The notes beneath the pieces were generated by a model that made no database searches, was not told the origin of the DNA, and saw only the letters and a program-made list of their open reading frames with translations. DNA of 60,726 nt. Source: Halorubrum lipolyticum DSM 21995. Lineage in GTDB: Archaea; Halobacteriota; Halobacteria; Halobacteriales; Haloferacaceae. Where the stretch lies: NCBI RefSeq assembly GCF_000337375.1, contig NZ_AOJG01000002.1, forward strand, positions 271-60,996, given 5' to 3'. A program made the translations under genes and the position numbers. Positions 25,265-60,726 of this stretch are shown here, piece by piece (the first letter of the stretch is position 1; each line of letters begins with the position of its first letter).

Positions 25265-25510
25265 GACACCGCGTTTCCCGTGAACAGTTGTCCGTTTCGG
25301 TGGGCGCCCGGATCCGGTCGCCCTTGAACACCGGAAGCCTCGAACACCGGAAGCCCCGGCCGCGGCTAGAGAACTATATAAACCTATATATTTTGGTCGT
25401 TTCGGCAGATTCACATTGAGTTGTGGCCGCCGCCATCCGAGTGCGTATTTAAATAGAGACAATATCGCGGCGTAGAGCCCTTTTCACGCGGGTATATATT
25501 CTGGACAGCT

Positions 25511-49370: not shown

Positions 49371-50492
49371 ATGGTACGGCCCGAGGTCCTCGCCTCGATC
49401 GGGGGGCGGCTCACGCGGCTCGCGGACGCGTTCGGCGCGTTCGCGGGCTCCGCCGTCGGACGGGTGCTGTTCGTGATTCTCTCGGTCGCGGCCGGCGTCC
49501 TCGCCTCGAAGTTCCTCGTGCGCCTCATCGGTCGCCCCGTCGCGCGCCGCGTGTCGAGACAGAGCGTCGCGCAGACGATCGTCAGAGGGGTCCGCGTCGG
49601 GACGGTCACGCTCTCGCTGCTCGTCGGTCTCTGGGCGACCGGATTCCGCTTTACCGACCTGCTCGTGGGGACCGCCGTCTTCTCCGCCGTGATCGGGATC
49701 ATCCTCGCGCCGCTCGTCGGGAACTTCATCAACGGCGTGTTCATCCTCGCGGACCAGCCGTTCGAGATCGGCGACATGATCGAGTTGGAGAACGGGACGA
49801 CGGGGTTCGTCGAGGACATCACGATCCGGTACACGAAGATATTCACGCTCGACAACACGTTTCTCGTCGTGCCGAACGGCGCGATGCGCGAGCGCGACGT
49901 GACCAACTACTCCGCCGAGGACGAGCGGACCCGCCGGACGATCGAGGTGCTCGTCACGTACGAGAGCGACATCTCCGAGGCGCGGCGGCTCATCGAGCGC
50001 GCGGCGCGGGACTGCGACGCGGTGATCGACGGCGGCCCGGACATCCGGGTCGGCGTCGCGCGCTACACCGCCAGCCCGGACTGCCGGCTCCACGAGTTCG
50101 GGGACGACGGCATTCTCCTCCGCCTCCGGTACTGGGTGAAGAAGCCGTATAAGCTCGCGAAGGTTCAATCCGACGTGAACACCCAGATCCGCGAGCGGCT
50201 CACGGACGCCGACGTGGAGATGGCGTACCCGCACCGCCACCTCGTCTTCGACGACACCTCCGGGATCGCGCGCGTCGGCGGTCCGGAGGACGGTCGACCC
50301 GAGGGAGAACGGGCCGGCGACAAGCCCGACCCGGAGGGGCGGGGAAGAGGCGGGGGACGAACGGACGGAAACGAGGAAAGCGAGACCGCGGACGCGACGC
50401 CGAGCGAAGCCGGCTCACCGACAGGAGCGGACGACATTGACGCCGGCGGCGCCGGTGACCCGGCCGGCACCGAGTCCGACGGCGAGCGGTGA
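49371..50492 (+). CDS. MscS-type mechanosensitive channel
   Basis: 373 residues. Three N-terminal transmembrane helices (VGRVLFVILSVAAGVLASKF, then TVTLSLLVGLWATGFRF, and LVGTAVFSAVIGIILAPLVG lining the pore) are followed by the MscS beta domain (ADQPFEIGDMIELENGTTG, LDNTFLVVPNGAMRERDVTN). The last 90 residues are Gly/Asp/Glu-rich and disordered. It releases solutes on osmotic downshock. ATG 49371 starts before the first helix. It is divergent from the PAC2 gene. Confidence 0.9.
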   Translation: MVRPEVLASIGGRLTRLADAFGAFAGSAVGRVLFVILSVAAGVLASKFLVRLIGRPVARRVSRQSVAQTIVRGVRVGTVTLSLLVGLWATGFRFTDLLVGTAVFSAVIGIILAPLVGNFINGVFILADQPFEIGDMIELENGTTGFVEDITIRYTKIFTLDNTFLVVPNGAMRERDVTNYSAEDERTRRTIEVLVTYESDISEARRLIERAARDCDAVIDGGPDIRVGVARYTASPDCRLHEFGDDGILLRLRYWVKKPYKLAKVQSDVNTQIRERLTDADVEMAYPHRHLVFDDTSGIARVGGPEDGRPEGERAGDKPDPEGRGRGGGRTDGNEESETADATPSEAGSPTGADDIDAGGAGDPAGTESDGER

Positions 50493-50572
50493 CTGTTCCA
50501 GTCTGACACGCCCTGTGGGGCGCTCCCAAGGAACCGGAAGCCTGATAGACCGAGGCGCCCGCTTATAAGTCA

Positions 50573-52291
50573 GTGAGCGACGAGCCCTCCGAAGACCCGC
50601 CGGCGTCGCCTTCGGAGTTCGGCGGCGCCGATCCCGACGACGGCGCCGGTGACGGCGATACGGGTGACGACGACACGGGTGACGACGACAGACCGATCGA
50701 CGGAACGCCCAGTAGCGACGAGGACGACGGCGCCGGCGGCGGTTCCGGCGATACCCGCAGCCGCGGTTCCGGCGATGGCTCCGACGACCGGGTCTCGGAG
50801 GAGTCGATCACCGAGGGGAGCCTGATCCGGCCGCTGTTCCACCTCGCGTGGCCGATCGTCGTCATCCAGCTGTTACAGGTGATGTACAACGTCGTCGACA
50901 CGCTGTACCTCGGGCGGCTGTCGGCCGAGGCGGTCGGCGCGATCAGCCTCGCGTTCCCCCTGATCTTCCTGCTTATCGCGGTCGCCGGCGGTTTCACGAC
51001 CGCGGGCGCTATCCTCGTGGCGCAGTACACCGGCGCCGACGGGGACCGGTCCGCGGGACTCGTCGCCGGCCAGACCATCTTCAGCGTCGCCGTGCTCTCG
51101 GTACTCATCGGGGTCGGCGGGTACTTCTACACGCGGCCGGCGCTCGAGATCCTTCCGAGCGACCCCGACACGGCAGCGACGGTGATCCCGCTGGCGGCCG
51201 ACTACATGGAGGTCATCTTCGCCGGCATCCCGCTGATGTTCGGCTTCTTCGTGTTCTCCGCGCTGATGCGCGGGTACGGCGACACCCGGACGCCGATGGC
51301 GGTGATGATCGTCTCGGTGTTCCTGAACGTGCTGCTCGACCCCTTCCTCATCTTCGGGTTCTCGGCGAATCCGCTGTTCGAGTGGCTGGCGGCGGTGCCG
51401 CTCGTCGCGGCGCTCGATCCCGTCGGGGTAGAGGCCGCGTTGCTTTCGGCCACCGGATTCACCGGCTACGGGATAGAGGGGGCCGCGATGGCGACGATCT
51501 TCTCGCGAGGGGTCGCCACCGCGATCGGACTCTGGCTGCTGTTCGCCACGGCGCTCGGTCCCGCGGTCTCGGTGAGTCACCTCGCACCGGACCTCGGGTT
51601 CATCGAGGACATCTTCCGGCTCGGGCTCCCCTCCAGCGTCGAGCAGACGACGAGCGCGCTGGCGATGATCACCCTCACCGCGATGATCGTCACGTTCTCG
51701 CCGCCGGTCGTCGCGGCCTACGGCCTCGGCAACCGGCTGATCTCGCTCGTCTTCCTCCCCGCGATGGGGCTCGGGCGCGCGATAGACACGATGGTCGGGC
51801 AGAACCTCGGGGCGAACCGGGCGGACCGCGCCGCGCGCTCGGTCAAGCTCGCGGCCTCGACCGGTGCCGGAGTGATGTTCCTCGTCGCGGTCGTCGCCGT
51901 CACGTTCACGGAGCCGATCGTCGGCGCCTTCCTCGGCGACGTGCCCGACGCGCCCGCGACCGTCGGGTACGCGGTCGAGTACGTGCGGATCCGATCCGTC
52001 GAGTTCGCGTTCATCGGGGTCTCGCAGGTCATCCTCGGCGCGTTCCGGGGGGCCGGCAACACGAAGACCGCCATGGTGATCTCGATCCTCACCCTCTGGG
52101 TCGGACGGGTCGCCAGCGTGGGCTATCTCGTCTTCATCGCCGGGTGGGGCGAGACGGGGATCTGGGTCGGGATGGCGCTCGGGAACATCCTGGGCGCGAC
52201 CGTCGCCGTCGCGTGGTTCGCGCGCGGGACGTGGACGGAGCGGTACATCGACGACCCGGCGCCGGATATCGACCCCGCGGGCGACGACTGA
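50573..52291 (+). CDS. MATE-family multidrug/solute efflux transporter
   Basis: 572 residues, twelve helices from about residue 95, with LFHLAWPIVVIQLLQVMYNV and QVMYNVVDTLYLGRLSAEAV, both MATE signatures, and an internal repeat (FRLGLPSSVEQTTSALAMIT). It exports drugs or metabolites with sodium or proton exchange. The first 80 residues are an acidic disordered tail. The GTG start at 50573 is only about 6 bases after a CTTATAAG element, so either that is not the promoter or the true start lies downstream. Confidence 0.9.
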   Translation: MSDEPSEDPPASPSEFGGADPDDGAGDGDTGDDDTGDDDRPIDGTPSSDEDDGAGGGSGDTRSRGSGDGSDDRVSEESITEGSLIRPLFHLAWPIVVIQLLQVMYNVVDTLYLGRLSAEAVGAISLAFPLIFLLIAVAGGFTTAGAILVAQYTGADGDRSAGLVAGQTIFSVAVLSVLIGVGGYFYTRPALEILPSDPDTAATVIPLAADYMEVIFAGIPLMFGFFVFSALMRGYGDTRTPMAVMIVSVFLNVLLDPFLIFGFSANPLFEWLAAVPLVAALDPVGVEAALLSATGFTGYGIEGAAMATIFSRGVATAIGLWLLFATALGPAVSVSHLAPDLGFIEDIFRLGLPSSVEQTTSALAMITLTAMIVTFSPPVVAAYGLGNRLISLVFLPAMGLGRAIDTMVGQNLGANRADRAARSVKLAASTGAGVMFLVAVVAVTFTEPIVGAFLGDVPDAPATVGYAVEYVRIRSVEFAFIGVSQVILGAFRGAGNTKTAMVISILTLWVGRVASVGYLVFIAGWGETGIWVGMALGNILGATVAVAWFARGTWTERYIDDPAPDIDPAGDD

Positions 52292-52305
52292 GGTCGGGAG
52301 CGGGA

Positions 52306-52381
52306 GTCAGGGGTCGGGAGCGGGAGGCCGTGAGTGGAATCGAGTCAGGGGTCGGGAGCGGGAGGCCGTGAGTGGAATCGG
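52306..52381 (+). repeat. 38-base tandem duplication between convergent genes
   Basis: Two nearly perfect 38-base units, 52306-52343 and 52344-52381, lie between the MATE gene and the DUF7385-like gene. They contain GTCGGGAGCGGGAGG and are probably slippage products; no reading frame spans them. Confidence 0.85.
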
Positions 52382-52398
52382 GCGAAGCGGGAGGAGAA

Positions 52399-52626
52399 TC
52401 AGTGACGGAACAGGTGGATCGCGTCCTCGTCGCGGAGGAGACAGAAGCGCGCGCCGTCGTTCTCCGGGAACGTGGCCCCCGTCTCTCGCGTGGTGAACAG
52501 CCGGTCGAACGGGGCGTCACACACCGGACAGGCGAGGTCCTTCCGGTTCTCCCAGAGGCTCGTCGCGCCCGTGTCCTTGAGCTGTTTCAGCGCGTGACGG
52601 TGGTCGTGCACGTCGAAACGCGGCAT
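52399..52626 (-). CDS. Small zinc-ribbon protein (haloarchaeal flagella-cluster type)
   Basis: 75 residues: MPRFDVHDHRHALKQLKDTG, then ACPVCDAPFDRLFTTRETG and a C-terminal FCLLRDEDAIHLFRH. One CxxC and other Cys/His residues suggest a small metal-binding domain. Proteins with this start are common in haloarchaea and sometimes named flagella-cluster proteins; the function is unproven. It is read from ATG 52626. Confidence 0.85.
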   Translation of the reverse strand: MPRFDVHDHRHALKQLKDTGATSLWENRKDLACPVCDAPFDRLFTTRETGATFPENDGARFCLLRDEDAIHLFRH

Positions 52627-52696
52627 GCGTCGAGGGTCCGCGGGTCGACAGTTGAAGGTGACCCCGCGAGTATCAGCGGTGATTCCGTCCGGGAGA

Positions 52697-53527
52697 CTAC
52701 TGCCGGTCCGGATCGTCCGCGAGCCGAGCGCGAGCGCGGTCGAGGGCGGTCTCGTCGCCGGTTCTGACGTACTCGCCGAGAGCGTCAGCGGCGTCGACGA
52801 GCGCGTCGGCGTCTTCCGGCGGCACGTCGCCCGTGAGCGCCTCGACGCGTTTCGTGCGGTCGCGGAGGCGTTCGAGGAGCGCGCGAACGGGATCGATCCG
52901 CGAGCGGGGCTCGGTACCGGCGACGGAGACGCTGCGTCCGGACGCGTCGGCGTCAACGCCCTCTTCGCCCTCGTTCGCTCCCTCAACCCCCTCCGTGCCG
53001 GCGAGCTCGTCGAGGAACGCGAGGAGGTCGGTCCGGTACTCGCCCACCGCGCGGACGGCGGCCATCCCGCGCGCCTCGCGGAGCGGATCGGGGACGGCTT
53101 CGGTCGCCGGTCGGTCGCCGTCGTCGGCGCCGGCGAGCAGCGCGAGGAGGTACTCCCGGTCGCGGTCGGTCGGGTCGCGTAATCGGTCGTAGATGTCGAC
53201 CGCCTCCAGCAGTTCGCGGGCGGCGAGGTAGGTGTCGTCCAGCGGAAGCAGTTCGCCGCCGCGAATGAACCCCCGCTTGCGGGCGTACGCGCGGAGGTCG
53301 GTCTTGAGGTCGTCGACGCCCTCCTCGGGGAGCGTCCCGCGCGCGTCGCCGAACCGGGCGCGGTGCGCGCTGAGGTCGAGGGTCGCCGGGGCGTCGGTGT
53401 GAGCGGTCCTGTCGTCGACGCCGACGCTCCTGAGGCCTCCGCAGTCGGGACACTCGACGGACCCCGTCTCGTAGTACGACCAGCGCGCGCCGCACTCCCG
53501 GCACTCCCGTTCGCCGCGGACCTTCAT
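52697..53527 (-). CDS. Zinc-ribbon helical protein (haloarchaeal TFIIB-ribbon type)
   Basis: 276 residues. The first 30 hold a zinc ribbon, ECRECGARWSYYETGSVECP with DCGGLRSVGV. The rest is an all-helical acidic domain, including DLKTDLRAYARKRGFIRGG and EYLLALLAGADDGD. A Gly/Glu-rich spacer (EGVEGANEGEEGVDAD) divides it. It is conserved in haloarchaea and may bind DNA or RNA, but the role is not known. ATG 53527 begins just before the ribbon. Confidence 0.8.
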   Translation of the reverse strand: MKVRGERECRECGARWSYYETGSVECPDCGGLRSVGVDDRTAHTDAPATLDLSAHRARFGDARGTLPEEGVDDLKTDLRAYARKRGFIRGGELLPLDDTYLAARELLEAVDIYDRLRDPTDRDREYLLALLAGADDGDRPATEAVPDPLREARGMAAVRAVGEYRTDLLAFLDELAGTEGVEGANEGEEGVDADASGRSVSVAGTEPRSRIDPVRALLERLRDRTKRVEALTGDVPPEDADALVDAADALGEYVRTGDETALDRARARLADDPDRQ

Positions 53528-53659
53528 GCGATCCACTTCGGCGCGTTCGGCGTAAAGGGCTGTGGTCGCGGCTGGCCGACCGGGCAGCCGATCCGGTCGG
53601 ACTGGGGAGGCTCTCTTGCGCCCGTCACATTATATATGCGTTCCCGGTGAATCGGGGAT

Positions 53660-54811
53660 ATGAGCTGGCACGCCGTCGAGGCCGTGGACGACGCCGTCGA
53701 GGCTACTCGCCGGTTCCTGTTCCCGTTCGGTCTCGTTCGCTGGGCGAAACTCGCTCTCCTCGTCCTCCTGATGGGCGGCGGCGCGAACGCCGGCGCCTCG
53801 GTCTCCGCGGCTCCCGACGCCCGGGTCGGCGGGGTTTCGGGATTCTCCGGAAGTTGGGGCACCGGCACGGGGACTGAATCCGTCGCCGAGGCGTCGGACG
53901 CCGTGATATCGGATCTCTCTGCTGGTGTGCCGATCGACTGGCAGGTCGCCGCCGTCGCGGTCGCCGCGATCGCCGCAGTCGTTGTGATCGTCGGGCTCTC
54001 GGTGGTCTCGCTGTCGCTTCGGTTGGTCTTTTACGACGCGCTTCGGACGAACGAGGTCCGGCTGTGGCGGCCGTTCCTTGGACGGCTCCGGCAGTCGGTC
54101 GGACTGTTCGTCGCTTCCACGGTCCTCTGGTCGTTCGCCGCCGGCCCGATCGCGTTGGCCGTGCTCGTGGCCGCCGCGGCAGAGACGCCGATCGGGTGGG
54201 AGCCGATTGACTCGTTCGCGGCGGCGGTGGGGTCGCTCTCGATCGGTCCCGCGATCGCCGTCGGCCTCCTCGGGGCCGTCGTCGTCCTGTTCGCGACGCT
54301 CGCGCTCCGGTTCACCTACGAGCTCGTCGTCCCCGCGATGGTGGTCGAGGGGACCGGCGTGCTCGCCGGCTGGCAGCGGGTCTGGCGCGCGGTACGCGGA
54401 GCGTGGCCGGAACTGGTCGTCTACCTCGCGGTTCACTTTTTCGTCGGCCTTGGAACCGCGATCGTCGAGGGGATCGCGTTCGTGCTCGTCGGCTCGGCAG
54501 TGACCGTGGTCTCCGGGAGCGTGCTTCTGCTCGCGGCCGTTGCCCTCGGCGGTCTCGGTGCGTTGGTGAGCACGACCGCCGGAGTCGCGACCGTCGCGAC
54601 CGTCGTGGTCATCGCCGTACTGGCGCTGGTGGCGCTAACGCTCCCCGTCAGCGTCGTCACGAGAACGTACCAGATCGCGTACGAGGCCGCCACGCTCGGC
54701 GGGATCGACCCGGAACTGTTGCTGTTCCATCCGGATATCGATCCGGGGTCCGCTGATCCCGATCCGGGGCCCGACGACGACGACGATCCGGCCTCCGTCG
54801 ACCGCAACTGA
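53660..54811 (+). CDS. Multi-helix membrane protein, haloarchaeal DUF7544-like
   Basis: 383 residues. The N-terminal helical segment MSWHAVEAVDDAVEATRRFL precedes about six transmembrane helices: VAAVAVAAIAAVVVIVGLSV, LFVASTVLWSFAAGPIAL, AVGLLGAVVVLFATLALRF and VTVVSGSVLLLAAVALGGL among them. The C-terminal tail is Pro/Asp-rich. I recognise no transport motif; it resembles conserved haloarchaeal membrane proteins of unknown role. Confidence 0.78.
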   Translation: MSWHAVEAVDDAVEATRRFLFPFGLVRWAKLALLVLLMGGGANAGASVSAAPDARVGGVSGFSGSWGTGTGTESVAEASDAVISDLSAGVPIDWQVAAVAVAAIAAVVVIVGLSVVSLSLRLVFYDALRTNEVRLWRPFLGRLRQSVGLFVASTVLWSFAAGPIALAVLVAAAAETPIGWEPIDSFAAAVGSLSIGPAIAVGLLGAVVVLFATLALRFTYELVVPAMVVEGTGVLAGWQRVWRAVRGAWPELVVYLAVHFFVGLGTAIVEGIAFVLVGSAVTVVSGSVLLLAAVALGGLGALVSTTAGVATVATVVVIAVLALVALTLPVSVVTRTYQIAYEAATLGGIDPELLLFHPDIDPGSADPDPGPDDDDDPASVDRN

Positions 54812-54975
54812 TTCGGTTTGGGGGGGAATCGTCGTCGAGGATCCCCATTAAGAATCGCTGCCGAGGATCGCTGCCGAGAATCGCCGCTGAGGGCCACCCT
54901 GAGGATCGTCGAATGTCGAACTATTATTCGACGGGTTCACATACCTTTTTACTCCGTTACCGAATTGGGGGAGAC

Positions 54976-57228
54976 ATGGGACTGGACGACGACGCGAGAG
55001 AGTACCACCGGCGGGAGCCGCCGGGAAAAATCGAGATCGAGACGACCAAGCCGACGAACACGCAGCGAGACCTCTCGCTCGCGTACTCCCCGGGAGTCGC
55101 GGCGCCGTGTCGAGACATCGCAGCGGATCCGGAGTCGGTGTTCGAGTACACGGCGAAGGGGAACCTCGTCGCGGTCGTCTCGAACGGCTCCGCCGTGCTC
55201 GGGCTCGGTGACATCGGCGCGTCGGCGTCGAAGCCCGTCATGGAGGGGAAAGGCGTGCTGTTCAAGCGCTTCGCCGACATCGACGTGTTTGACATCGAGC
55301 TCGACATCGACGAGGTCGACCCGTTCTGCGAGGCGGTGAAGGCGATGGAACCGACCTTCGGCGGCGTGAACCTCGAGGACATCAAGGCGCCCGAGTGTTT
55401 CAAGATCGAGGAGCGGCTCCGCGAGGAGATGGACGTCCCCGTGTTCCACGACGACCAGCACGGGACCGCGATCATCTCCGGCGCGGCGCTGATGAACGCG
55501 ACGGAGATTTCCGGGAAGGACCTCTCCGAGATCGATATCGTGTTCTCGGGGGCCGGCGCGTCCGCGATCGCCACCGCTCGATTCTACGTCGAACTCGGCG
55601 CGCGCAAGGAGAACATCACCATGTGCGATTCCTCCGGCATCATCACCGAGGATCGCGTCGCGAACGGCGACGTCAACGAGTACAAGAGTCAGTTCGCTAG
55701 CGAGGGGCCGGGCGGCGATCTCGCCGACGCGATGGAGGGCGCAGACGTGTTCGTCGGCCTCTCGGTCGGCGGAATCGTCTCGCAGGAGATGGTTCAGTCG
55801 ATGGCGGCGGACCCGATCATCTTCGCGATGGCGAACCCCGATCCGGAGATCACCTACGAGGACGCGAAGGACGCCCGCGACGACACGGTGATCATGGCGA
55901 CGGGCCGGTCCGACTACCCGAACATGGTGAACAACGTGCTCGGGTTCCCGTTCCTGTTCCGCGGTGCGCTCGACGTGCGCGCGACGGAGATCAACGAGGA
56001 GATGAAGCGGGCGGCCGCGGAGGCGCTCGCGGAGCTGGCTCGCAAGGACGTGCCGGACGCGGTGGTGAAGGCGTACGGCGACGATCCGCTTCAGTTCGGG
56101 CCCGACTACGTGATCCCGAAGCCCCTCGACCCGCGCGTGCTCTTCGAGGTCGCCCCGAGCGTCGCGAAGGCGGCGATGGAGTCGGGTTGCGCACGGACCG
56201 AGATCGATCTCGAGCAGTACCGAGAGCAGCTGGAGGCGCGGCTGGGTAAGTCCCGCGAGATGATGCGCGTCGTGTTGAACAAGGCGAAGAGCGACCCGAA
56301 GCGTATCGCGTTGGCCGAAGGGACCGACGAGAAAATGATCCGCGCGGCCTACCAGCTCTCCGAGCAGGGGATCGCGGACCCCGTGCTCCTCGGCGACGCC
56401 GACGAGATTGCTCGAACCGCCGATCGACTCGGCCTCTCCTTCCGTCCGGAAATTGTGGATCCCGACGCGCGCGACGTGTCCGCGTACGGCGATCAGCTCT
56501 ACCAGCTCCGGAAGCGAAAGGGCATCACCAGTCGCGAGGCGAACGAGCTGGTTCGCCGGGACACAAACTACCTCGGGAGCGTCATGGTGAAGTCGGGAGA
56601 CGTCGACGCGATGCTCACGGGGCTGACGCACCATTACCCGTCTGCGCTCCGGCCGCCGCTTCAGGTCATCGGTTCCGCGGCGGACACAGACACCGTCGCC
56701 GGCGTGTACATGCTCACGTTCAAAAATCGGGTCGTCTTCTGTGCAGACACAACGGTGAACCAGGACCCCGACGCGGAGACGCTCGCGGAGATCACCCGTC
56801 ACACCGCGGAACTCGCCCGCCGATTTAATGTCGAGCCTCGCGCAGCGATGCTCTCGTACTCCAACTTCGGGAGCGTCGATAATACGGGGACCCGAAAACC
56901 CCGTGAGGCGGTCGAAATACTCCACGATGACGAGGAGGTCGATTTCCCCGTGGACGGTGAGATGCAGGCCGACACGGCCGTCGTCGACGAGATCCTCAAC
57001 GACACCTACGAGTTCTCGGAGCTTGACGAGGCCGCGAACGTACTCGTGTTTCCCAATCTCGAAGCCGGGAACATCGGCTACAAGCTGCTCCAGCGGCTCG
57101 GAGGGGCGGAGGCGATCGGGCCGATGCTCGTCGGGATGGACGAGCCGGTCCACGTGATTCAGCGGGGTGACGAGGTCAAAGACATCGTCAACCTGGCCAG
57201 CGTGGCCGTTGTCGACGCGCAGAAGTAA
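54976..57228 (+). CDS. maeB: NADP-dependent malic enzyme fused to a phosphotransacetylase domain
   Basis: 750 residues. Residues 1-425 are the malic enzyme: KPTNTQRDLSLAYSPGVAAP, GLGDIGASASKPVMEGKGVL, VFHDDQHGTAIISGAAL and a Rossmann GAGASAIATARFYVELGARK. Residues 430-750 are phosphotransacetylase-like (RIALAEGTDEKMIRAAYQLS, MLTGLTHHYPSALRP), which in MaeB proteins is mainly regulatory, binding acetyl-CoA. It decarboxylates malate to pyruvate. ATG 54976 is used; TATA-like CATACCTTTTT is near 54939. Confidence 0.95.
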   Translation: MGLDDDAREYHRREPPGKIEIETTKPTNTQRDLSLAYSPGVAAPCRDIAADPESVFEYTAKGNLVAVVSNGSAVLGLGDIGASASKPVMEGKGVLFKRFADIDVFDIELDIDEVDPFCEAVKAMEPTFGGVNLEDIKAPECFKIEERLREEMDVPVFHDDQHGTAIISGAALMNATEISGKDLSEIDIVFSGAGASAIATARFYVELGARKENITMCDSSGIITEDRVANGDVNEYKSQFASEGPGGDLADAMEGADVFVGLSVGGIVSQEMVQSMAADPIIFAMANPDPEITYEDAKDARDDTVIMATGRSDYPNMVNNVLGFPFLFRGALDVRATEINEEMKRAAAEALAELARKDVPDAVVKAYGDDPLQFGPDYVIPKPLDPRVLFEVAPSVAKAAMESGCARTEIDLEQYREQLEARLGKSREMMRVVLNKAKSDPKRIALAEGTDEKMIRAAYQLSEQGIADPVLLGDADEIARTADRLGLSFRPEIVDPDARDVSAYGDQLYQLRKRKGITSREANELVRRDTNYLGSVMVKSGDVDAMLTGLTHHYPSALRPPLQVIGSAADTDTVAGVYMLTFKNRVVFCADTTVNQDPDAETLAEITRHTAELARRFNVEPRAAMLSYSNFGSVDNTGTRKPREAVEILHDDEEVDFPVDGEMQADTAVVDEILNDTYEFSELDEAANVLVFPNLEAGNIGYKLLQRLGGAEAIGPMLVGMDEPVHVIQRGDEVKDIVNLASVAVVDAQK

Positions 57229-57420
57229 ACGTAGGTGTCGTTGAGGATCGTAGCGGAGTTCGGTGCTCACGGCCCTGCAGGTACTTCGGGTTCGCGGTCG
57301 ATTTCTTGCGGTTTGTGTTCTCTCGCGGTTGCGGTTTACGTTCCTTGTGACGACGATCCTTCCTTGTGACGGCGATCAGGCGATCGATATGGTGACAAAC
57401 TGGCTCAGTAGAGGAAAGTC

Positions 57421-57470
57421 GTTTGAGAGACACACCGTGTTTCCGGTGAAATAGGGGTCGTTGGGGGTGG
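57421..57470 (+). repeat. Long ORB-like origin repeat, left copy
   Basis: GTTTGAGAGACACACCG at 57421 continues into GTTTCCGGTGAAATAGGGG and a G-tract TTGGGGGTGG. Its near-identical inverted partner is at 58011-58056. The G-tract beside a dyad core is the typical Orc1 origin-recognition-box layout. Confidence 0.75.
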
Positions 57471-57533
57471 GTGGGTAGTGGCGGGCAGTTGTGCCGGGAA
57501 ATTCGAGTCACCGAGCTCGAACGAAGTGTCTCA

Positions 57534-57575
57534 AAACGCTTTATGAAATAAAAAGAATTATAAATGTGTTTTGAG
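57534..57575. promoter_or_regulatory. AT-rich unwinding-element candidate
   Basis: About 30 bases of almost pure A/T (TTATGAAATAAAAAGAATTA near 57541, then TAAATG) are bounded by the inverted repeat CTCAAAAC/GTTTTGAG. It lies between the left and right long ORB-like repeats. Confidence 0.55.
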
Positions 57576-57627
57576 TACAATCCATCAAGCCAAGAAATAG
57601 TAGAACTGTTTGTGCCGAAGGCTACTG

Positions 57628-57665
57628 GTTTCACCGGAAATCGGAATTTCACCGGAAATCCGGTC
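57628..57665 (-). repeat. Two adjacent short ORB-like cores
   Basis: TTTCACCGGAAATCGG at 57628 and ATTTCACCGGAAATCCGG at 57646 repeat the core in the same orientation as the right long copy, without the G-tract. Confidence 0.6.
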
Positions 57666-57877
57666 TCTCGTTTCGTTCCGTAGCGTGTGTAGATCTGGAC
57701 TTACACAGGTACCTTAACCCTCTTTCTCGCCCAAACCCATTTTCTCGCCCAAACCCATCCTCTTTAGTTCGATACGTTCTTGCTTGTCCTGCCTGATCTT
57801 CCGTGTCACCCACCAGAGTTCCACCTGTGCTCTCTCGCTCCGCCTTGTTGGTGAGAATTAACCAGTTAGATAGATCG

Positions 57878-57900
57878 GTGACACCGGGTTTCCGGTGAAT
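57878..57900 (+). repeat. Short ORB-like core
   Basis: GTGACACCGGGTTTCCGGTG at 57878 is a core in the opposite orientation to its neighbours and has no G-tract beside it. Confidence 0.6.
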
Positions 57901-58010
57901 CAAACCGCTTGAATTTCATCCGACGTATACGAAGTGGCGCAGATTAGTCACCTGTTAGATACCTGTTTTATATACTCGTACCGGACCACCCACACACCCA
58001 CCGTCCCCCA

Positions 58011-58056
58011 CCCCCACCTACCCCCATTTCACCGGAAACCCGGTGTGTCTCTCAAC
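58011..58056 (-). repeat. Long ORB-like origin repeat, right copy
   Basis: On the minus strand this reads GTTGAGAGACACACCGGG, then TTTCCGGTGAAATGGGGG and a G-rich tail, an inverted near-copy of 57421-57470. The G-tracts of the pair both point into the origin. Confidence 0.75.
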
Positions 58057-58086
58057 TCCACCTTCATCACGGGCGAAGCGGAACGC

Positions 58087-58108
58087 ATTTCACCGGAAAC
58101 CCGGTGTC
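58087..58108 (-). repeat. ORB-like core next to the orc1/cdc6 start codon
   Basis: ATTTCACCGGAAACCCGGTG begins at 58087 and the dyad ends about six bases before ATG 58115. Initiator binding here could block expression and so give autoregulation; this is inference. Confidence 0.6.
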
Positions 58109-58114
58109 GATCCC

Positions 58115-59317
58115 ATGGACGCAGCGGACGACCTCTTCACTAGGGAGGACCCGATCTTCGCGAACAAGGAACTCCTCGAGATCAGCCACCTCCCCGGTGA
58201 GGGCCGGATCGTCGGCCGCGACGACGAGATCGCCGATCTCGCGACGGCGGTCAACCCGGCGATCTTCGGGCAGAGTCCGAGTAACGTGCTGATCTACGGA
58301 AAGACCGGGACCGGGAAGTCGCTCTGCGCGAAGTACGTCTCCAAGCGGCTCGTCTCGACGGCGGGTGAGGAAGGCGTCAACGCGACGTTCGCGTACGTCG
58401 ACTGCGCGCAAGACACGACAGAGACACAGGCCGTTCAGACCATCGCCGACGCGGTCAACGATCCGGACGCCACCGGGATCAACGTCCCCGATAAGGGCCT
58501 CTCGACCTCGACGTACTACAAACGGCTCTGGCGGATCCTCGATCAGCGGTACGACGTCGTCCTCATTATCCTCGACGAGATCGACAAACTCGACGACGAC
58601 GCAATTTTGATGCAGCTGTCGCGAGCCGGCGAGGCCGGCAAAATCACCGATTGCAAGCTCGGTGTTGTAGGGATCAGCAACAAGATCCAGTACAAAGACC
58701 GCATGGACGAGCGAGTCAAATCGAGCCTCTGTGAGCGTGAGTTCGTGTTTCCCCCATACGACGCCAATCAACTCCGTGAAATCATGCAAGCGCGCGCGGA
58801 CGCGTTTCACGACGAGGTCCTCGAACCGTCGACGATCCCGCGCGCCGCGGCGCTCGCCGCGCGCGAACACGGAGACGCGCGTAAAGCGATCGACATCCTC
58901 CGGTACGCGGGCGAGATTGCACAGAGTAACGGTGAGCCGACCGTTAGAGAGGAGTTCGTCACGCAGGCACGCGAGCGCGCGGAGACCGACCGATTTCGCG
59001 AACTCATCCGCGGGTCGACGCCACACTCTCGCTACGTCCTCCAGGCGCTCGCGCTGCTCTCGCTTTCGAGCGGCCGTCAGGACGGGTTCCGAACCAGCCG
59101 CGTGTACGAAATCTACGAGAACATCTGCCGGCAAGAGGGCTCCGACAGCCTCTCGCTGCGTCGGGTCCGCGATCTCCTCAAGGAACACGCCTTCCTCGAC
59201 ATTATCGAACAATCAAAACACAGCGGAGGAAGTGCAGAGGGAAGCTACACGAAACACCAGCTGTTGGAGGATCCGAGTGTCGTCAAAGAAGTGCTGACGG
59301 AAGACGCCTCACAGTAG
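58115..59317 (+). CDS. orc1/cdc6: Orc1/Cdc6 replication initiator
   Basis: 400 residues. MDAADDLFTREDPIFANKEL, REDEIADL-type RDDEIADLATAVNPAIFG, Walker A YGKTGTGKSLCAKYV at about 61, Walker B VLIILDEIDKLDDDA at about 148, and sensor regions, then a C-terminal winged helix (YVLQALALLSLSSGRQDG) that binds DNA. It binds ORB repeats upstream and loads the MCM helicase. The start is ATG 58115 because upstream codons run through the ORB core. Immediately beside TBP. Confidence 0.95.
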   Translation: MDAADDLFTREDPIFANKELLEISHLPGEGRIVGRDDEIADLATAVNPAIFGQSPSNVLIYGKTGTGKSLCAKYVSKRLVSTAGEEGVNATFAYVDCAQDTTETQAVQTIADAVNDPDATGINVPDKGLSTSTYYKRLWRILDQRYDVVLIILDEIDKLDDDAILMQLSRAGEAGKITDCKLGVVGISNKIQYKDRMDERVKSSLCEREFVFPPYDANQLREIMQARADAFHDEVLEPSTIPRAAALAAREHGDARKAIDILRYAGEIAQSNGEPTVREEFVTQARERAETDRFRELIRGSTPHSRYVLQALALLSLSSGRQDGFRTSRVYEIYENICRQEGSDSLSLRRVRDLLKEHAFLDIIEQSKHSGGSAEGSYTKHQLLEDPSVVKEVLTEDASQ

Positions 59318-59434
59318 CGCCGTAAAACAGTGCCGACGTACACCGAACACACGCGGCTCGGTTTCAGGTTCGACCGCTTGCGGTCCGTCGTCCGTCGTTT
59401 GGAAGCGATCCGATCTCGATCCGATCGTCTCCCG

Positions 59435-59995
59435 CTAGCCCAGTAGACCGAGCCCTTCGATCCGTTCGACGATCTCCTCGACGGCTTCTTCGGCGTCGTC
59501 GGTTCGTTTCCCACCGGTGATGACGATCTTCCCGCTCCCGAATAAGAGAATCACGACTTCCGGTTCGTCCATCCGGTACACGAGACCGGGGAACTGCTCC
59601 GGTTCGTACTCGACGTCTTCGAGCCCGAGACCGATCGCGAGCGCGTTGAGGTTGAGGTTGTGTCCGAGGTCGGCGCTCGAGACGATGTTCTGAACGGTTA
59701 TCTCCGGATCGTCCTCGACCGGAATTTGCAGCCCGCGGAGCTTCTCGAAGATGATCCCGAGCGCCTCGTGGACGTCATCGATACTTTTCGCACCCGTACA
59801 GACGATCTTCCCTGACCGGAAGATGAGCGCGGCCGCCTTCGGTTCTTGGGTCCGGTAAACGAGACCCGGGAAATTATCGGGGTTAAAATCTGCCCCCGGA
59901 AGGTCCTCAGCCAGCGCCTCCAAATCGAGCTCTTGGCCGATCCCCGTCGATGCAACTACGTTCTGGATCTCGATCGAATCTGCAGGGTTCGTCAT
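59435..59995 (-). CDS. tbp: TATA-binding protein
   Basis: 186 residues, two direct repeats of about 90: SIEIQNVVASTGIGQELDLE with FPGLVYRTQEPKAAALIFRS, and ITVQNIVSSADLGHNLNLNA with FPGLVYRMDEPEVVILLFGS. Each repeat ends GKIVCTGAKS or GKIVITGGKR. It binds TATA boxes with TFB to start transcription. It converges with orc1/cdc6 (117 bases). Haloarchaea often encode several TBPs. Confidence 0.96.
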   Translation of the reverse strand: MTNPADSIEIQNVVASTGIGQELDLEALAEDLPGADFNPDNFPGLVYRTQEPKAAALIFRSGKIVCTGAKSIDDVHEALGIIFEKLRGLQIPVEDDPEITVQNIVSSADLGHNLNLNALAIGLGLEDVEYEPEQFPGLVYRMDEPEVVILLFGSGKIVITGGKRTDDAEEAVEEIVERIEGLGLLG

Positions 59996-60023
59996 CGTTC
60001 GCTTTTATATGTGTCCCCCTCCC

Positions 60024-60031
60024 TTATAAAC
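60024..60031 (-). promoter_or_regulatory. TATA box of the tbp gene
   Basis: On the minus strand TTTATAAG lies about 29-36 bases before the ATG at 59995, fitting a nearly leaderless transcript. A second ATATAAAA element at about 60004-60011 lies closer to the start. Confidence 0.6.
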
Positions 60032-60330
60032 GCCTGTGGTATAAACGACCGCTCGGTCGTCGACCGCTGCGCTGCACGACAGTCACTTTACGCACGCACG
60101 TCTCTCCTGCCATCAGTGTCGTATCGCTTCGCGGTCGAGATCGATGAGGCGGCTCGGTTCCCGGCTTGACACCCGCGTCAGTATTGGCGAAAATATAACA
60201 AATATCTGGTAATTCACGGTGTTTATGGGTCGTTCGTTGAGTGGCCTGGATCGATATCTCACCCGTTTCGCACACCGGTAATTTGATCCCCTCGTGCGAA
60301 CCGATCTCAATGAAAACGCATGACGTGGCG
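60032..60330. other. Intergenic region before the rrn promoters
   Basis: Apart from the tbp promoter at its left edge, I see no gene or repeat I can support in these about 300 bases. A short AT-rich stretch (AAATATAACAAATATC near 60191) is the only notable composition feature. Confidence 0.5.
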
Positions 60331-60337
60331 CCGATGG

Positions 60338-60380
60338 TTCGACGGGGTTAAATACAACCCGGCATTCGTGTTGAATGCGA
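60338..60380 (+). promoter_or_regulatory. rRNA operon promoter, upstream copy
   Basis: TTCGACG at 60338, TTAAATA at 60348 and ATGCGAAG at 60375 follow the layout of haloarchaeal rRNA promoters (TTCGACG-type upstream box, AT box, start near TGCGA). The AT box to TGCGA spacing is 28 bases, the same as in the second promoter. A short hairpin GCATTC/GAATGC precedes the start, and a GTCCCCC/GGGGGAC hairpin follows it. Confidence 0.7.
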
Positions 60381-60433
60381 AGGTCCCCCGGCGCGGGGGA
60401 CAACGGTCGGCCGCACCGCGGCCGGTCGAAGCG

Positions 60434-60477
60434 TTCCGACGTGCTTAAGTGTATAAGCCCGTTCGGTTGAAACGCGA
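60434..60477 (+). promoter_or_regulatory. rRNA operon promoter, downstream copy
   Basis: TTCCGACG at 60434, TTAAGTGTA at 60445 and ACGCGAAG at 60472 repeat the same layout 97 bases downstream, with 28 bases between TTAA and CGCGA. Tandem promoters are usual for haloarchaeal rrn operons. Confidence 0.7.
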
Positions 60478-60726
60478 AGAACGCACCGCGGACTCGGGAC
60501 GTTCAACTCGTCCCGGTTTCGCAGAGTCGGTTTATCCGACTCATCCGAATGAGGATTTCGCCCCCTGCGCTCCGGCGTAAGAGGAAATCTGATGTGAGCC
60601 GTGGTAGTTCGGTGTCATCCAGGTCGCTGGGTGAACCGGACACCACATAGACCATGCAATGGTGTTTTGACTTATCGCAAGTCAAAACCCGCCAACACCC
60701 CTCTGAGCCGGGAATCAGGCTCAGAG
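60478..60726 (+). other. Pre-16S rRNA leader (16S gene lies beyond the edge)
   Basis: About 250 bases follow the promoters with no reading frame I can support. They hold hairpins: TTTTGACTT (60665) with AAGTCAAAA (60679), and CTCTGAGCC (60701) with GGCTCAGAG (60718). This resembles an rRNA leader and processing-stem region. A 16S start is not in the window, so the identity rests on the promoters and structure. Confidence 0.6.

Follow-up and report, generated by a model that had tools for sequence, protein, structure and literature searches.

The closest described relatives of the locus analysed here are the haloarchaeal oriC1 origins, namely the oriC1–cdc6A region of Haloarcula hispanica (PMC3936714) and the loci of a survey of 15 haloarchaea that included Halorubrum lacusprofundi (PMC3528665). 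They have the same gene context and inverted ORBs with extended G-strings, and are also alike in an inner G-rich inverted repeat, an AT-rich element and a nearby rrn operon (PMC3936714, PMC3528665). The Halorubrum oriC1 adds inner ORBs and a start-codon-proximal ORB, with no difference in kind. In H. hispanica, the G-strings are essential for autonomous replication of oriC1, and cdc6A was far harder to delete than oriC1, from which the authors inferred a vital function outside oriC1 (PMC3936714). Here we describe oriC1 of a Halorubrum chromosome together with single, conserved oriC1 ORBs located elsewhere in the genome (hereafter referred to as solitary ORBs). No published account of such sites was found in the open-access literature searched, and they suggest an undescribed layer of replication control.

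The nearest archaeal counterpart of the solitary ORBs is oriC2D of H. hispanica, also composed of non-firing initiator boxes, which is experimentally supported as an ORB region for another Cdc6, probably titrating it; titration of Cdc6E was proposed (PMC3936714). However, oriC2D comprises 11 clustered ORBs that immediately follow cdc6E, whereas the solitary ORBs are of the Orc1-1/oriC1 class and are found 31–620 kb away; being single and distant, they do not form the dense ORB cluster adjoining a cognate cdc6 that is typical of oriC2D. In E. coli, datA, DARS1 and DARS2 are likewise a few conserved non-coding initiator sites that lie off the origin; their distance from it is fairly conserved (PMC4585315, PMC5010248). 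By contrast with the solitary ORBs, which are single and belong to an unrelated initiator, datA and the DARS sites contain multiple boxes and act on the nucleotide state of DnaA. Conserved non-coding initiator boxes outside the origin are found here, but not several boxes with a site for an architectural protein, and since each locus has a single box, the solitary ORBs may work like datA/DARS without being members of that class. In Bacillus subtilis, conserved intergenic boxes for the bacterial initiator DnaA also lie off the origin, where they form clusters, some of them at promoters.

The window (the whole stretch of DNA that was analysed, 60.7 kb in length) contains an 886-bp gap between maeB and orc1/cdc6 (57229–58114), which holds five strong ORBs and one half-site (Table 1). 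This gap directly adjoins an orc1/cdc6 gene of the oriC1 class, and maeB is also followed by ORBs in the congeners G017, G028 and G030. The original prediction had placed a candidate chromosomal origin between these two genes and within 3 kb of an rrn operon, and both positions hold. No rRNA gene was detected within 50000–60726 (Rfam, gathering threshold); the contig ends in an apparent rrn leader, and the 16S gene starts about 1.5 kb past cdc6 in the closed congener G007. That 57229–58114 is the haloarchaeal oriC1 of the Halorubrum chromosome, a known kind of origin, is strongly supported by its neighbouring genes, by the inverted ORBs and their G-strings, by the AT-rich element and by conservation throughout the genus, and its features match those published for haloarchaeal oriC1 (PMC3528665, PMC3936714, PMC4010727). 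At the left border, a perfect 20-nt inverted repeat, GATCCTCAACGACACCTACG (56991–57010 and 57230–57249), joins the 3' coding part of maeB to the bases just past its stop codon; it is possibly a recombination scar or a readthrough hairpin.

Table 1 Features of the window, in window coordinates
Feature	Coordinates	Strand	Evidence or conservation
Weak solitary ORB-like site, 2 mismatches, probably chance or lineage-specific	25266..25284	+	Pattern scan
maeB (left border of origin), encoding a malic enzyme with a fused phosphotransacetylase-like domain	54913..57228	+	ORF; NCBIfam PRK12861, E 1.4e-230
Left long arm of inverted pair: outer ORB and inward G-tract	57423..57471	+	92% complementary to 58007-58055
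ORB 1, outer left, ACACCGTGTTTCCGGTGAA, then G-string AATAGGGG and GGGGGTGGG	57432..57450	+	Conserved in most congeners
AT-rich probable unwinding element, ~20% GC, between CTCAAAAC and GTTTTGAG	57530..57577	.	GC minimum at equivalent place in most congeners
Conserved box, AAAGAATTATAAA...GTTTTGAGTA...TCAAGCCAA, over right half of AT-rich element	57549..57594	+	GAGTA..CAAGC block in ~18/29 congeneric origins
Half ORB, TTTCACCGGAAA only	57629..57640	-	Repeat analysis
ORB 2, inner, AGACCGGATTTCCGGTGAA	57648..57666	-	Inner minus-strand ORB in many congeners
ORB 3, inner, perfect core, without G-string	57881..57899	+	Pattern scan
Right long arm of inverted pair: outer ORB and inward G-tract	58007..58055	-	Repeat analysis
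ORB 4, outer right, perfect core	58028..58046	-	Similar position in 25/29 congeners
ORB 5, start-codon-proximal, G-string-free	58089..58107	-	29/29 congeneric origins
orc1/cdc6-1 initiator gene, 400 aa	58115..59317	+	TIGR02928, E 1.3e-127; Pfam Cdc6_lid and Cdc6_C
TATA-binding protein gene (tbp), 3' of cdc6	59435..59995	-	NCBIfam PRK00394, E 5.2e-106
Probable rrn promoter/leader at contig end, 16S not contained	60340..60726	+	Sequence; rrn operon at equivalent place in congener G007

The ORB pattern ACACCGGGTTTCCGGTGAA, scanned at up to three mismatches, gave six matches in the 60.7-kb window and none in 100 dinucleotide shuffles used as the control. Five of these matches lie inside 57229–58114, each with 0–2 mismatches. 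Six ORB-like cores had been predicted; five are full ORBs and the sixth is the half-site only. The two longest copies are inverted with their G-tracts pointing inward, as expected, and form arms of 49 nt; at the inner ends of these arms is a perfect G-rich inverted repeat, GGGGGTGGG/CCCACCCCC (57463–57471 and 58007–58015). Only 8 nt separate the end of ORB 5 from the start codon of cdc6, which makes this ORB a promoter-proximal box and not a component of the unwinding core. Following established archaeal biology, Orc1-1 (also known as Cdc6-1) would contact both the core and the G-string of the two outer inverted ORBs; the AT-rich element that they enclose would melt, and MCM would then be loaded. 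ORB 5 would let Orc1-1 control its own gene, and probably autoregulates cdc6.

The AT-rich stretch between the outer ORBs is flanked by CTCAAAAC at 57530 and GTTTTGAG at 57568, which had been taken to bound it. Both are present, but the CTCAAAAC arm is found at that place in this genome only, whereas GTTTTGAG lies in the conserved box; the boundary is thus half chance, and we rejected the pair as a defined inverted boundary. The conserved box itself (57549–57594) is likely to be origin-specific. It can also be written ATAAAC..GTTTTGAGTA..CAAGCCAA, and many Halorubrum origins have it next to the AT-rich element, a position that suggests a comparison with the ucm element of Sulfolobus (PMC12141716).

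We compared oriC1 across 29 congeneric (Halorubrum) origins. G-strings are kept at the outer ORBs, and none is found at the inner and start-proximal ORBs; the outer right ORB and the start-codon ORB recur at similar places (Table 1). In the group formed by G010, G018, G013 and G025, the start-proximal ORB stays at cdc6 and the other oriC1 ORBs have moved off by 0.6 to ~12 kb. It had been suggested that the core may define a specificity class for this Orc1. Within its own genome it is indeed specific, but the oriC1 of other families in the order has the same core, TTCACCGGAAACNNGGTGTG, and it therefore marks the general oriC1/Orc1-1 class and not a new one.

A search of the genome for the same core at other origins, as the original prediction had proposed, gave a two-sided result: the core is absent from the other cdc6 loci, which were accordingly rejected as users of the oriC1 ORB, and exact solitary copies exist elsewhere. 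The exact sequence TTCACCGGAAACNNGGTGT occurs at three places outside oriC1, C41:251215 (locus A), C6:53932 (locus B) and C3:34874 (locus C), none of them with a cdc6 gene beside it. A second cdc6 locus (L015; G000:C28:97360-101550) has its gene flanked on both sides by inverted repeats of the ACACCCCTCTATC type, and resembles oriC2 with an oriC2D region.

The exact ORB pattern is present in 32 of 33 Halorubrum genomes, usually in 5–7 copies, for a chance expectation from composition of 0.0002 exact ORBs per genome; the reversed pattern was found 0 times in every genome searched. When 60 isolated ORBs were clustered with their 4-kb surroundings, 59 fell into three orthologous intergenic loci (21 in A, 20 in B and 18 in C), the sixtieth lying at a contig end. 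At locus A, a beta-propeller-like gene and ndk (part of an L7Ae–S28e–L24e–ndk operon) face the site with their 3' ends, and they are convergent in essentially every genome. Locus B follows the 3' end of an FAA-hydrolase gene and precedes hisC; in G019, hflX (identified from its sequence) lies between the site and hisC, and other species have a similar gap. Locus C has a 2Fe-2S ferredoxin gene on one side and a conserved hypothetical gene on the other. With up to two mismatches allowed, all three loci contain the box in each of nine congeners examined that have Orc1-1 or oriC1 remnants (27 of 27 sites), six of these sites having one mismatch (three in B, two in A and one in C). The solitary sites reach ~1.9 bits per base against 0.3–1.0 in their flanks, a value inflated inside the box because the sites were partly selected by exact match. 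They mostly lie just past stop codons, at 60–140 nt. The weak site of the window at 25266 was considered as a fourth conserved solitary ORB and rejected, since it was not seen there in 10 congeners.

Eight closed chromosomes were compared for the position of these sites. In seven of them, C is located 31–67 kb, B 183–362 kb and A 296–468 kb from oriC1, with B and C to one side of it and A to the other; the eighth, G018, is rearranged and departs from this order. The sites are mainly in the origin-proximal quarter of each chromosome arm. General synteny alone could account for part of the conserved distance from oriC1.

The only genome of the genus without an ORB is G001, which also has no close Orc1-1: maeB is followed by unrelated sequence, and the ndk/propeller neighbourhood is kept with no box between the genes. 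In a ribosomal/ndk tree, G001 branches as sister to all other members of the genus, so that loss and never having gained the boxes are inseparable there, and its assembly is in 160 contigs; we therefore take it as suggestive of co-loss and not as proof. Across the family, an Orc1-1 ortholog (at least 80% identity) is present in 12 of 12 genomes with several boxes, and none was found at E ≤ 1e-150 in 15 of 15 box-free genomes, including species pairs within one genus. At the order level, Orc1-1 is present in 6/6 genomes with a box and 0/7 without, and most of these box-free counts, in family and order, also reflect the absence of oriC1 itself. A single genome, G110, has one box match and no Orc1-1 ortholog. 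The solitary boxes are real features at orthologous places, vary as little as the boxes of the origin and are essentially restricted to genomes with Orc1-1; where Orc1-1 is gone, almost no solitary box survives.

In other genera of the family, solitary boxes are mostly found at conserved places other than A, B and C. One, near bcp downstream of cdc48, is shared by eight genera; another, between convergent gyrA and arginase-like genes, by three genera (seven genomes). A box is again near the ndk operon in one genome of genus g49, and near the EamA/Lrp-like genes of locus C in genus g47. No exact solitary ORB is present in the Haloferax genomes listed, which have origin boxes only (6–8 at oriC1). 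At the solitary boxes examined, there is no G-string, second ORB or AT-rich element, and the flanks are 50–80% GC. At cdc48/bcp, a CAACTRGTTG palindrome, or a near match to it, adjoins the solitary ORB in several genera (L173, L217, L220 and L225) and could be its partner site.

The best overall explanation, which we hold with moderate confidence, is that the chromosome carries oriC1 and three solitary Orc1-1 boxes whose likeliest role is titration or control of the initiator. Its parts differ in strength. Orc1-1 very probably binds the boxes. A, B and C would then be binding sites that, without G-string, partner or AT-rich element and located just past gene 3' ends, neither fire nor mostly act as promoters. 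They might hold or process the initiator away from oriC1, as datA/DARS or DnaA-box clusters do. The alternatives left by this anatomy are control of the availability or the nucleotide state of the initiator and a structural role. That the role is titration or control rather than some other one is a tentative proposal by analogy, favoured by the probably titrating precedent of oriC2D in H. hispanica and by the distant non-coding sites of bacteria (PMC4585315, PMC5010248). Three single boxes set against four or five at the origin would make a weak sink, and pure titration would need high affinity or polyploidy-scaled counts. The Haloferax genomes listed further indicate that such sites are not needed everywhere that Orc1-1 exists.

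Both B and C are upstream of a gene in many genomes, which makes a transcriptional role possible. Orc1-1 would in that case be a transcription factor for a few neighbours (hisC/hflX and the MQPSKERE gene), comparable to Sulfolobus Orc1-2, a known regulator (PMC9738581), or to bacterial DnaA. Locus B is 47–171 nt upstream of hisC in many genomes and ~60 nt upstream of hflX in the one checked, C is 82–169 nt upstream of its conserved hypothetical gene, and ORB 5 sits right before cdc6. However, at A, at the gyrA/arginase site and at most sites of the cdc48/bcp type, the 3' ends of the flanking genes converge on the box, and no annotated promoter would be expected there. The gene downstream of B varies (hisC in some species, hflX in the one checked), whereas the distance of the box from the 3' end of the upstream gene is fixed, and the neighbours have no common function. 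We consider this reading unlikely.

The placement just past stop codons and between convergent genes would also suit a role in chromosome organisation or at 3' ends, with Orc1-1 bridging to oriC1 or acting as a roadblock, or the box serving as a hairpin terminator. ORBs in which NN is GG can form a CACCGG/CCGGTG stem, but the stem-completing NN is found in 0/25 A, 5/25 B and 7/22 C sites; as it is not conserved, the terminator was rejected. The boxes are moreover absent without Orc1-1 though the neighbouring genes remain, where checked, and this class of explanation is improbable. There is even less to recommend the idea that the solitary ORBs are MCM loading points, as dormant or seed origins that would come into use under stress or once oriC1 is lost. 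The box is the same as at oriC1 and is intergenic, and Haloferax mediterranei has a known dormant origin (PMC4595724), but the solitary loci have a single box, without inverted partner, G-string or AT-rich element in their flanks of 50–80% GC. Origin deletion strains of H. hispanica gave no new origin, and G-strings are essential there (PMC3936714). Lastly, the sites were first found by an exact pattern search and the weak 25266 site shows that a background exists, but an ordinary oriC1 with all other matches due to chance or ascertainment is hardly credible given the minute expectation, the lack of reversed matches, the three orthologous loci and the complete recovery at relaxed stringency in nine genomes.

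If the solitary ORBs are indeed titration or control sites for Orc1-1, they bear on the poorly known means by which archaea, which are in many cases polyploid, keep initiation at oriC1 in check; the boxes provide exact 19-bp targets. The oriC1 initiator of H. hispanica is hard to lose and has no known second target (PMC3936714), and this fits a second job of Orc1-1, the link to solitary boxes being by analogy. On a wider scale, it is quite possible, if somewhat less likely than not, that Archaea have a chromosome-wide, origin-centred control by single Orc1-1 boxes in promoter-free 3'-3' intergenic spaces, conserved within genera and re-sited between them. Such control might act on the availability of the initiator, on copy number or on the arrangement of the chromosome, and would explain the reported vital role of Cdc6A beyond oriC1. 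If the boxes do control initiation, archaea and bacteria would have evolved distant single-site control of the initiator separately.

Many haloarchaeal genera apparently have no close Orc1-1 ortholog and no oriC1 ORB, 60 of 148 family genomes being box-free, in contrast to the universality of oriC1 stated in the 15-genome haloarchaeal survey (PMC3528665). Arrays of oriC1-type ORBs, with 7–10 exact copies, are also found on plasmids of Halorientalis marina (L235) and Natronorubrum bangense (L238).
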